Shown: piece by piece, positions 31,171-53,103 of the stretch | How positions within the stretch are numbered: position 1 is the first letter of the stretch | How the letters are laid out: each line of letters opens with the position of its first letter | DNA from: Myxosarcina sp. GI1 | GTDB taxonomy: Bacteria > Cyanobacteriota > Cyanobacteriia > Cyanobacteriales > Xenococcaceae | NCBI RefSeq assembly: GCF_000756305.1 | Contig: NZ_JRFE01000026.1 | Coordinates: 269,412-333,411, forward strand | DNA: 64,000 nt | Direction of reading: 5' to 3' | Notes under the pieces: model-generated | The model's database searches: none | The model's input: only the letters and a program-made list of their open reading frames with translations | What the model was told of the DNA's origin: nothing | Translations under genes and position numbers: made by a program

Positions 31171-32043
31171 ATGCAGAAACAAGAACGCCGTCCGACTCCC
31201 GATGATATTCCCGCTCAAAAGCTAGACTATCCTGCTTCTCAAAGGGATATGGAACCTCAGCCTGATAGCGACCTGTCCAACTATAAACCCGCCGGTAAAC
31301 TGAACGGTAAAGTAGCTTTTATTACTGGTGCCGACTCTGGTATCGGTAGGGCTGTAGCGATCGCCTATGCTTTAGAAGGGGCGGAAGTAGCTATTTTCTA
31401 TAACGAAAATGATGCCGATGCCGAAGATACCAAAAAAATGGTTAAAGATATTGGCAATAAAGACTGTTTGGTAATTAAAGGAGATGTGCGTAACTATGAA
31501 GATTGTGAATCCGCGATCGCCCAGGTAGTAGAGCGTTTTGGTAAGTTGAATATTTTGATTAACAATGCTGCTTACCAAATGACTCAGAAAAAATTTGAAG
31601 ACATTTCCCTCGAACAGTTTCGACGCACGCTGGAAACTAATATATTTGGTTATTTTTATATGGTTAAAGCTGCTCTACCTCATTTAGAAGCAGGAGACGC
31701 AATTATCAACACGGGTAGCGTCGTCGGCAAAATGGGCAAAGCGATGTTGATCGACTATGCTACCTCTAAAGGTGCAGTACATACCTTTACCAAGTCTCTA
31801 GCGTTGAATTTGGGCGAGCGTCAAATACGGGTCAATTCAGTAGTTCCAGGACCAGTTTGGACTCCTAACATTCCTGCCACTATGCCTGTCGAAAAAGTAG
31901 ACAACTACGATACCGACGGCATAATCAAACGCGCTGCCCAACCAGAAGAACTAGCCCCCGCCTACGTTTTTTTAGGTAGTTCTGACAGCAGCTTTGTTAC
32001 AGGCGCGCTTTATGACGTAACTGGCGGACAGCTTTCAGCTTAA
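31171..32043 (+). CDS. Short-chain dehydrogenase/reductase (YghA-like)
   Basis: NAD(P)-dependent oxidoreductase of the SDR superfamily. The cofactor loop TGADSGIGRAV, the NNAAYQ structural motif and the catalytic YATSK are all intact; the N-terminal extension (QKQERRPTPDDIPAQKLDYP) is the one typical of the YghA-type group. Substrate unknown. The frame is open from TTG 31129, but ATG 31171 gives the proper family start (290 residues). It lies 44 bases before a paralogue, so the two form a tandem pair, possibly from duplication. Composition suggests a stress or osmotic-response type. Confidence 0.9.
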   Translation: MQKQERRPTPDDIPAQKLDYPASQRDMEPQPDSDLSNYKPAGKLNGKVAFITGADSGIGRAVAIAYALEGAEVAIFYNENDADAEDTKKMVKDIGNKDCLVIKGDVRNYEDCESAIAQVVERFGKLNILINNAAYQMTQKKFEDISLEQFRRTLETNIFGYFYMVKAALPHLEAGDAIINTGSVVGKMGKAMLIDYATSKGAVHTFTKSLALNLGERQIRVNSVVPGPVWTPNIPATMPVEKVDNYDTDGIIKRAAQPEELAPAYVFLGSSDSSFVTGALYDVTGGQLSA

Positions 32044-32087: not shown

Positions 32088-32954
32088 ATGACTATTTCTC
32101 CAAATAAAATTCCCGCACAATCACAAGAAAGACAACCCGCACTAGAGTCAGAAATGACTCCCAAGCCAATTTACGACCGCGATAGCTATAAAGGTAGCGA
32201 AAAACTCAAAGGTAAAGTCGCTCTAATTACAGGCGGCGATAGCGGTATCGGTCGCGCTACAGCAGTTTTGTACGCTAAAGAAGGAGCAGATGTTGCTATT
32301 TCTTATTTAGACGAACAAGGCGATGCTGAGAAGACTAAAGAACTAGTTGAAGCTCAAGGACAAAAATGTTTGCTGCTGCCTGGCGATATTAGTAAAGAAG
32401 AACTTTGTCAGGAAATAGTTCAAAAAACTGTAAATGAATTTGGCAAACTAAATATTTTAGTTAACAATGCTGCCGAACAGTATCTTGAAGATGCGATGAC
32501 GCTAGAAGATATCGACTCGGCACGTTTGGGTAGCATTTTCAGCACTAATATCTTTGCCATGTTTTACTTGTGCAAAGCAGCAATTCCTCATTTAAAAGAA
32601 GGCAGTTCGATTATCAACACTACCTCGATTAATGCCTACAAAGGTAATGCGGCACTGCTAAGTTACTCTACAACTAAAGGAGCAATTCTGGCATTTACTC
32701 GCTCCCTATCTCAATCTTTAGTCGAAAAAGGCATTCGCGTTAATGGCGTTGCTCCAGGACCTATTTGGACTCCCTTTATTCCCGATGCTTTTGATGCCGA
32801 AATGGTAGAAGGCTTTGGCAAACAAGTGCCCATGAAACGTCCAGGACAGCCAGTAGAAGTGGCTACGGCTTTTGTCTTTTTAGCGTCTGATGATTCGTCC
32901 TATTTTACAGGACAAGTTCTCCATCCTAATGGGGGCGCAGTTGTCGGTGCCTAA
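32088..32954 (+). CDS. Short-chain dehydrogenase/reductase (YghA-like paralogue)
   Basis: Second SDR of the tandem pair, 288 residues. It has TGGDSGIGRAT (cofactor loop), NNAAEQYLED, the catalytic YSTTK and APGPIWTPFIPDAF. The N-terminal extension with QPALESEMTPKPIYD matches the same subgroup as its neighbour. Moderate divergence between the two argues for an old duplication or separate roles. Substrate is unknown. Two hairpins follow between it and the convergent uppS. Confidence 0.9.
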   Translation: MTISPNKIPAQSQERQPALESEMTPKPIYDRDSYKGSEKLKGKVALITGGDSGIGRATAVLYAKEGADVAISYLDEQGDAEKTKELVEAQGQKCLLLPGDISKEELCQEIVQKTVNEFGKLNILVNNAAEQYLEDAMTLEDIDSARLGSIFSTNIFAMFYLCKAAIPHLKEGSSIINTTSINAYKGNAALLSYSTTKGAILAFTRSLSQSLVEKGIRVNGVAPGPIWTPFIPDAFDAEMVEGFGKQVPMKRPGQPVEVATAFVFLASDDSSYFTGQVLHPNGGAVVGA

Positions 32955-51397: not shown

Positions 51398-51673
51398 TTA
51401 AAGCGCACCAATATTAGCAAGTCCCAAAATAACTCCAGCACCGATCATGTGACCCAGGCTAGTAGTACCTAGTAATGCTGGTAAGCCCATACCGCCAAAA
51501 AATTGGGGAGAAGGTAAACCTGGTTCTGCGCTGTAGGCACTATAGTTGTTCAAAGCAAATTTGCCTAAAGCGATCGCTAAAACATTACACAGTACCATCA
51601 CTATTGCAACTTTGGGACTCCAGGAAACCGTATTTGGGGTTGAAGTTGCTGCTAATAAAGTTAAATAAGTCAA
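51398..51673 (-). CDS. psaK: Photosystem I reaction center subunit PsaK
   Basis: Small thylakoid membrane subunit at the edge of photosystem I that binds chlorophyll. Two membrane helices (VAIVMVLCNVLAIALGKFAL and LGHMIGAGVILGLANIG) are separated by a loop YSAEPGLPSPQFFGGMGLPA, typical of PsaK. Translation starts at TTG 51673, with GGAG eight bases before it, or less likely further in. At 91 residues it matches cyanobacterial PsaK. Single gene with its own terminator. Confidence 0.95.
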   Translation of the reverse strand: MTYLTLLAATSTPNTVSWSPKVAIVMVLCNVLAIALGKFALNNYSAYSAEPGLPSPQFFGGMGLPALLGTTSLGHMIGAGVILGLANIGAL

Positions 51674-51869: not shown

Positions 51870-52240
51870 GGGGCTGTGGCTCAGCAGGATAGAGCAAGCG
51901 CCTCCTGAACAATCGGGCATGATGAAGGAAACTTCATTGATGAATGCGATCTAACTCAAGGAAGCCTAAATTCGCGCTGTCGAACAAGGTAATCTTGAGC
52001 CAAGCTCTATATTTCTTGGTAGAGAAGGTGCAGAGACTAGTTGTAGGTATCAAACAAGAAAAATTTGACAAAATTAATAGTTAAAAAAAATTCGCTCATA
52101 CCTACAACATAACGATCGCCACCTAAAGACATTTATCGCATTTTATAGATCGTGTCCAGGGTGAAGAGATAGTCCAGAGAGTGGGGAAACTCACACCAAT
52201 CTGAAGCGCTAGGTCGTCGGTTCAAATCCGACCAGTCCCG
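51870..52240 (+). tRNA. tRNA-Arg(CCU) interrupted by a group I intron
   Basis: The 5' exon 51870-51906 and 3' exon 52204-52240 join to a complete 74-base tRNA. Acceptor GGGGCTG pairs with CAGTCCC, the D stem is GCTC/GAGC, the anticodon stem AGCGC/GCGCT, the loop CTCCTAA with anticodon CCT, and the T arm GTCGG-TTCAAAT-CCGAC. G73 is the discriminator; CCA is not encoded. The intron follows anticodon position 36. Reading without the intron is needed to see the gene, so usual tRNA scans may miss it. Confidence 0.93.
51907..52203 (+). ncRNA. Group I self-splicing intron (297 nt)
   Basis: It begins after a T (5' exon end) and ends in G, as group I introns do. Core elements are seen in order: a hairpin ATGAAG-GAAA-CTTCAT (51922-51937), Q-like AATCTTGAGCCA (51991-52002), R GTGCAGAGACTAG (52028-52040), and S AAGAGATAGTCC (52164-52175). 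GACTA of R pairs with TAGTC of S to form P7. A perfect 11-bp stem (52040-52050 with 52098-52108) closes an AT-rich loop. No open reading frame for a homing endonuclease fits inside. It resembles cyanobacterial tRNA introns of the IC3 type. Confidence 0.9.
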
Positions 52241-52440: not shown

Positions 52441-53103
52441 CTAGCTTTTTTTAGCTTTGGAGATTGCCGTACCGATAATACAGGTTCGCTCCAAATTAAC
52501 GCCGTCTAAATTACTACCATCGGTTTCGGCGCACAGTAAATTGGCACCAGTTAAATTAGCTCCTGCCAGGTTGGTTCCTCGCAAATCAGCTTCTTCTAAG
52601 TTGGCTTCACTAAGATTAGCTCCCTGTAAATCAGCTTGAGACAGATTGGCACCTTTTAAATTAGCACCGTTGAGATTAGCACCTTTGAGATCGGCACCAC
52701 GCAAGTCTACACCCTGAAAATTGACTCCAGATAGATTACTGCCGCTCAAGAAAGCTCCTGCCAGAGAAGCACGAGACAATTTTGCTCCCATAAGATTGGC
52801 ACCGCGAAGATTGCCACCGCGTAAGTCAGCATTACTCAAATCGGCTTGCATCAAACTCGCGCCCAGAAAATTGGCTCTCAAATCTGCTAATTCGAGCCGC
52901 GCCCCTAAAAGATTAGCTCCGTCTAGTCTGGCTCCTTTAAGATTAGCGCGTGATAAATTGACACCTACTAAATTAGCTCCAGCAAAATTAACTTTTTCTA
53001 ACTGGCAGCTAGAGAGATCTTCGTCTTCTAAATCTACTCCTGGAAATTGTTTGCTTTCCCCCGCTCGAATTGTTTCTACTTCAGTTGTCATAATAGTTGT
53101 CAT
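52441..53103 (-). CDS. Pentapeptide repeat protein
   Basis: A 220-residue protein made almost entirely of about 33 A(N/D)LxG-type pentapeptides (NLSRANLKGARLDGANLLGA and so on), which fold into a right-handed quadrilateral beta helix. A short acidic N-terminus precedes the repeats and a basic KAKKS tail ends it. No signal peptide, so it is cytosolic. Function of such proteins is mostly unknown. Reading frames on the other strand here are repeat-driven artefacts. Confidence 0.9.
   Translation of the reverse strand: MTTIMTTEVETIRAGESKQFPGVDLEDEDLSSCQLEKVNFAGANLVGVNLSRANLKGARLDGANLLGARLELADLRANFLGASLMQADLSNADLRGGNLRGANLMGAKLSRASLAGAFLSGSNLSGVNFQGVDLRGADLKGANLNGANLKGANLSQADLQGANLSEANLEEADLRGTNLAGANLTGANLLCAETDGSNLDGVNLERTCIIGTAISKAKKS

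Follow-up and report, generated by a model that had tools for sequence, protein, structure and literature searches.

How does a cyanobacterium come by a tRNA-Arg(CCU) when the sole gene found for it is interrupted within the anticodon loop? The question is raised by a locus in a 64,000-nucleotide stretch of the Myxosarcina sp. GI1 genome – the window, as we call the whole of the DNA analysed here – for which an initial annotation, made from the letters of the sequence, had proposed a tRNA gene split by a small group I intron. Among cyanobacteria, tRNA-Leu(UAA) is the classic host of a group I intron, and the tRNA-Arg(CCU) of Agrobacterium, an alpha-proteobacterium, carries a group I intron too. 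For the locus described here, we consider it highly probable that a group I ribozyme interrupts the sole tRNA-Arg(CCU) gene found, with its insertion point behind nucleotide 36, and that a normal tRNA results from splicing. This reading is founded on the anatomy of the gene, the covariation of the intron core and the finding of no second copy; transcription and the two splicing steps are predicted.

When introns are allowed, ARAGORN reports in the 64 kb window a tRNA-Arg(cct) with an intron length of 297 and the junction 'ctcct-Intron-aagcg'; the insertion site thus lies after the third anticodon base (position 36), between CTCCT and AAGCG. The gene consists of three parts:

51870..51906, forward strand: 5' exon of tRNA-Arg(CCU), 37 nt, ending at anticodon position 36 (CCU); from the sequence and ARAGORN with introns
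51907..52203, forward strand: group I intron, 297 nt, with terminal G; from RF00028, ARAGORN with introns and the list of open reading frames (ORFs)
52204..52240, forward strand: 3' exon of tRNA-Arg(CCU), 37 nt; from the sequence and ARAGORN with introns

These boundaries coincide exactly with those initially annotated, namely two 37-base exons around a 297-base insert ending in G. Joined, the exons 51870–51906 and 52204–52240 form a complete cloverleaf with the anticodon CCU, as read by ARAGORN. Run without introns, the same program finds no continuous tRNA in the 64 kb window, just as had been foreseen in the warning that tools expecting an uninterrupted tRNA would overlook this gene. The flanking ORFs, at 51398–51673 and 52441–53103, both lie on the opposite strand and were read by eye as a putative photosystem I PsaK and a putative pentapeptide-repeat protein, respectively. 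Promoter-like matches around the split gene are no more numerous than in shuffles (2 found, 1.9 expected), and the terminator scan is likewise uninformative.

The initial annotation had made its proposal depend on a match to the Rfam model of group I introns, and such a match exists: RF00028 (Intron_gpI) is found at 51894–52196 on the forward strand, over model positions 1–253 of 253, with 70.4 bits against a cut-off of 50 and an E-value of 7.5e-16. It is the only Rfam match in the window at the gathering threshold. The helices of the intron can be placed as follows:

51904..51917, forward strand: P1, exon CCU with intron GA...UC GGG, with a U-G pair at the 5' splice site; from the minimum-energy fold
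51922..51937, forward strand: P2, with a GAAA cap; from helix placement and covariation
51946..51951, forward strand: P3 5' strand, GCGATC, pairing with 52114–52119; compensatory changes relative to related introns
51956..52029, forward strand: P4–P5–P6 domain; from RF00028, helix placement and covariation
52035..52039, forward strand: P7 5' strand, GACTA, pairing with 52170–52174 (TAGTC); from RF00028 and covariation
52040..52108, forward strand: hairpin between P7 and P3, with an 11-bp stem and a 47-nt AT-rich loop; from helix placement and covariation
52114..52119, forward strand: P3 3' strand, GATCGC, pairing with 51946–51951; from the alignment and covariation
52121..52162, forward strand: P8; from RF00028, helix placement and covariation
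52170..52174, forward strand: P7 3' strand, TAGTC, pairing with 52035–52039; from RF00028 and covariation
52181..52194, forward strand: P9, with a GAAA cap; from RF00028, helix placement and covariation

The P7 pairing GACTA/TAGTC is thus the one recognised at the outset, now placed at 52035–52039/52170–52174, and the strands of the 11-bp stem that follows its 5' strand are GTTGTAGGTAT/ATACCTACAAC at 52040–52050/52098–52108. The predicted fold of the unspliced precursor (-111.7 kcal/mol) is more stable than that of 100 dinucleotide shuffles (mean -88.1; z -4.15, with no shuffle as low) and contains the cloverleaf, P1–P6, the hairpin after P7, P8 and P9; P7 itself is absent from it because P7 forms a pseudoknot with P3. 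P1 appears in this minimum-energy fold as CCUGA/UCGGG, which gives the U-G pair at the 5' splice site and led us – together with the fact that the anticodon would otherwise be deleted – to dismiss a 5' splice site after nucleotide 33, as the complementarity of GCCU and GGGC might have suggested. Both intron T7–C12 and the terminal G (52203) are invariant across the 69 introns aligned for the covariation analysis. For P10, the pairing of the 3' exon with the guide sequence, no clear pairing was found, as judged by eye only. No ORF of at least 60 aa in the ORF list overlaps the window's intron, which consequently encodes no homing endonuclease.

The alignment comprises 69 of 113 unique introns, omitting 8 long ones and 36 of another type, five of which were assigned there by eye, against the sorting made by the script. 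Among the 69 introns of the window's type, standard pairs occupy 91.9% of 4234 cells, and in 30 of the 62 pairs both partners vary; on none of five measures is the observed value reached in any of 500 shuffles, and pairing in slid controls is 26–43%. These figures overstate the number of independent events, since kinship among the introns is not taken into account by the shuffles. P3 and P7 are each paired in 100% of cells, with three pairs changed on both sides in P3 and variation in a single pair, on one side only, in P7. In P3, nearly all other introns have GTGGTC/GGCCAC, as against GCGATC/GATCGC in the window: both partners differ in two of the pairs and a single partner in a third, with pairing kept. 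Chance pairing was dismissed on the grounds of the Rfam score, the covariation and the shuffles.

Whether the split gene has an intact counterpart was asked of the whole genome (7.07 Mb in 76 contigs; completeness 100, contamination 2.29), which has one RF00028 match, the window's intron. None of its 57 RF00005 matches lies at the split tRNA-Arg(CCU) locus. ARAGORN names 55 of these 57 loci, with ACG, CCG and TCT as the only arginine anticodons; the remaining two belong to a tRNA array on contig C43, have lengths of 117–120 nt and lack CTCCT. The joined tRNA, used as a query, recovers both exons at 100%, and all other matches in the genome stay at or below 36.5 bits. By these means – the RF00005 and ARAGORN readings and the joined-tRNA query, over 76 contigs – no uninterrupted tRNA-Arg(CCU) was found, an intact gene elsewhere in the genome, with no spliced product from this locus, being what the initial annotation had held would speak against it. 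Its central claim, that of a tRNA-Arg(CCU) gene split in the anticodon loop by a group I intron, is upheld by the RF00028 match, the joined cloverleaf, the covariation and the lack of an intact genomic copy. A tRNA-Arg(UCU) is present in the genome (ARAGORN, anticodon TCT) and could read AGG, so that splicing of tRNA-Arg(CCU) need not be essential. As for the array on contig C43 (G000:C43:31232-32527, L117), it is a dense one: a single strand bears fourteen RF00005 matches in the space of 1.3 kb, and the two places unnamed by ARAGORN, 31741–31860 and 32104–32220, carry extra sequence.

The same arrangement recurs throughout the family. All 32 RF00028 places of 26 other family genomes were fetched, and in 25 of them, from 25 of the 26 genomes, ARAGORN finds a split tRNA-Arg(CCU). 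The other seven comprise a second intron in each of six genomes and the single place of genome G014; Rfam names a host gene for none of these seven introns, L091 being without a match at the cut-off. At another of the seven (L063, genome G001), a group II intron match at 15–91 lies approximately 110 bases upstream of the group I intron at 201–536. A split-gene (junction) pattern, made of the intron end and the 3' exon, is found in 26 of 27 family genomes and in all 22 of the good ones, while the intact-gene pattern is found in none of the 27. The initial annotation had called the occurrence of such introns sporadic, which does not describe a family sample in which this one is near-universal.

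At the level of the order, for which short patterns with up to three mismatches were used, 201 of 388 sampled genomes have the split-gene pattern, single false matches among the 201 being possible. The intact-gene (anticodon arm) pattern is found in 133 of the same 388 genomes, or in 130 once three (G185, G326 and G382) are set aside that matched a CTCCA sequence and not tRNA-Arg(CCU); none of the 133 has the split-gene pattern as well (0/76 and 0/57), and 54 genomes (388 less 201 less 133) have neither. Among the matches listed, carriers include Pleurocapsa, Hyella, Xenococcus, Microcoleus, Okeania, Crocosphaera, Prochloron, Planktothrix, Nostoc and Calothrix, and two genera, g9 (family f2) and g122 (family f8), have species with either pattern. 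ARAGORN, set to introns of 150–900 nt and thus missing longer introns and those at stretch ends, did not find a split gene in 14 of 116 stretches from the matches listed. In the phylum sample, the junction pattern occurs in 26 of 292 genomes, all 26 from the window's order, which lends no support to a spread outside the order, a narrow pattern being one that would miss divergent introns. Nor is a link to phages or plasmids supported: the 371 bases of the split gene have no match at E 1e-5 in 50,697 phage and 72,556 plasmid records. In short, the window's intron is genuine and rather ordinary: its kind is known, and it is common in the order.

Group I introns are excised in two steps – a guanosine attack at the 5' splice site, then exon joining after the terminal G. 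In the case considered here, the precursor of the split tRNA-Arg(CCU) would be transcribed and the intron would fold, with P1 pairing the 5' exon end CCU with intron GGG and with P3–P7 forming the catalytic core. An external guanosine would attack after U36; the freed 5' exon would then attack after the intron's terminal G, and the joined exons would constitute a normal tRNA for AGG codons (the group I splicing pathway is set out in part in PMC3984707, in the portion available). Self-splicing is predicted; the strongest indirect evidence for splicing is that almost the entire family retains the split gene, with no other copy found, and that its core has undergone compensatory changes.

Two other accounts of the locus have to be weighed against this one. 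The gene might be a decayed pseudogene whose intron no longer splices, AGG being read by tRNA-Arg(UCU) alone; that tRNA does exist in the genome, and the long end branch of the window's intron in the tree described below (0.29) would fit such decay. Yet the exons give a complete cloverleaf, the changes in P3 retain pairing and the split gene persists in 26 of 27 family genomes with the intact-gene pattern in 0 of 27, so that we regard decay as highly unlikely. Alternatively, the intron could be removed not by its own catalysis but by a protein tRNA-splicing endonuclease, as in archaea and eukaryotes, whose tRNA introns share its position in the anticodon loop (PMC4033280, in the section available). 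The same section describes those introns as relatively short, below 100 nt, whereas the insert has a full group I core with covarying helices, and the chance that a protein splices it is, in our view, vanishingly small.

Among the 113 unique introns, the P7–P3 stretch is either 4 nt long or, where parsed, 36–84 nt long with a hairpin (a first parsing left out 16 of the 113, the window's intron included, and misparsed L132, and a second expression and inspection were then used). Sorted accordingly, the set contains 36 short introns, 69 with the hairpin and 8 longer than 600 nt. Within the 26 family introns, 10 of the 11 stem pairs change on both sides and 86.0% of cells are paired, compared with 28–48% in slid controls; none of 500 shuffles is as high on any measure, and only a few rows retain the two innermost pairs. 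Across the 69-intron alignment the stem occupies one position and is 69.4% paired, a value lowered because the 3' strand is shifted in some rows. Conserved and covarying, the 11-bp hairpin distinguishes one of the two types of intron present at the tRNA-Arg(CCU) site – and is, judging from its covariation in the 26 family introns, no oddity of the window's copy, as its initial description as an unusual extension would have had it. An inverted repeat with an AT-rich loop, in a stretch of such variable length (36 to 84 nt among the introns parsed), might also be seen as a mobile palindrome that was inserted there and has no part in the function of the ribozyme; the covariation of the stem within the family and its single position in the aligned introns leave that idea only a slim chance.

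In a quick tree of 112 introns, from which the P7–P3 stretch was removed, the types part at a branch with 100% SH-aLRT, with one short-loop intron (L143) placed inside the hairpin type. The window's intron lies among introns of its own family, on an end branch that is long (0.29) among its relatives, but outside every starred set, and this family does not form one clade. Since records named Microcoleus are found in both types, introns at the tRNA-Arg(CCU) site have probably been swapped. Two introns of genus g9, L097 and L095, belong to different types at this same site; alike in P1, P2 and P9 and unlike in the P4–P6 part, they may reflect an intron swap or recombination.

The eight introns longer than 600 nt all have long ORFs. 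In six of hairpin type (L138, L162, L173, L184, L210 and L225) the ORF is located in the P7–P3 stretch, and five of these ORFs extend across the P3 3' strand to a TAA stop codon directly behind it. The L138 ORF, the one of the six run against Pfam, is LAGLIDADG_2 (E 9.7e-34), and the other five look alike by eye. In the remaining two (L223 and L236), of the other type, the loop of P5 contains the ORF, which runs on the opposite strand; the L223 ORF, the one of the two run, is HNH_2 (E 1.5e-10). Given that six related introns have an ORF at the hairpin's place, the AT-rich loop of the window's intron may be a remnant, or a landing place, of an endonuclease gene. More specifically, the P7–P3 hairpin could be a reusable docking place for homing endonucleases and the window's loop a leftover after gene loss – a tentative proposal, to which we give somewhat less than an even chance. 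If it is true, the tRNA-Arg(CCU) introns of the order would stand at different stages of a cycle of gain, homing and loss, and the ribozyme stem would be kept by selection.

Extensions called P7.1 and P7.2, placed between the P7 5' strand and the P3 3' strand, are typical of subgroup IA; bacterial tRNA introns usually belong to subgroup IC3, of which a P7–P3 hairpin is not typical. The hairpin described here resembles P7.1/P7.2 in being an extra hairpin between the same two strands, whereas its bearer is a tRNA intron whose P2 and P9 end in GAAA caps; an rRNA intron with both P7.1 and P7.2 is described in a section of PMC1995217, which also puts the number of bacterial tRNA genes containing group I introns at four. 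With the cyanobacterial tRNA-Leu(UAA) intron the window's intron shares the nature of a small ribozyme in the anticodon loop (PMC5733544, PMC4033280 and PMC8450103, as far as the available sections go), but differs in its host, tRNA-Arg(CCU), and in its insertion after nucleotide 36. The Agrobacterium intron has the same host tRNA and anticodon and is likened to it by host gene alone. In Myxosarcina sp. GI1 itself, tRNA-Leu(UAA) is complete and without an intron (ARAGORN; G000:C3:143600-143950, L102, and other tRNA loci).

According to the available part of PMC5733544, Leu(UAA) and fMet were the only cyanobacterial tRNAs in which previous studies had recorded introns; the same part reports short introns (22–49 nt) in cyanobacterial Arg(ACG), Gly and Lys tRNAs, and mentions tRNA-Arg(CCU) group I introns, their host unnamed, as kin of the Leu intron. 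A description of a cyanobacterial group I intron in tRNA-Arg(CCU) or tRNA-Asn was not found in those portions of the open-licence literature, and an earlier mention is possible. In practical terms, a split gene explains why a cyanobacterial genome may appear to lack tRNA-Arg(CCU). Split and intact genes, introns with and without endonuclease, and two ribozyme types – all at one site – make a natural series for intron gain, homing, replacement and loss, to which the window's copy adds an endonuclease-free example with compensatory P3 changes. The wider setting – the two types, the hairpin endonucleases and the tRNA-Asn introns – is of more interest than that copy.

The tRNA-Asn introns were seen in three genomes, G027, G058 and G080, where RF00028 introns (L094, L096 and L098; 84.9, 77.9 and 84.7 bits) interrupt tRNA-Asn(GUU) directly behind its second anticodon base. 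Of the 61 genomes in the carriers' family, 19 show the corresponding junction pattern. Five carriers of this junction were checked and have, by pattern, no intact tRNA-Asn arm; in four of the five there is only a two-mismatch match, reading as tRNA-Lys. Their only asparagine tRNA thus seems to depend on splicing. Genome G098, which is without the tRNA-Asn junction, has an exact intact tRNA-Asn arm.
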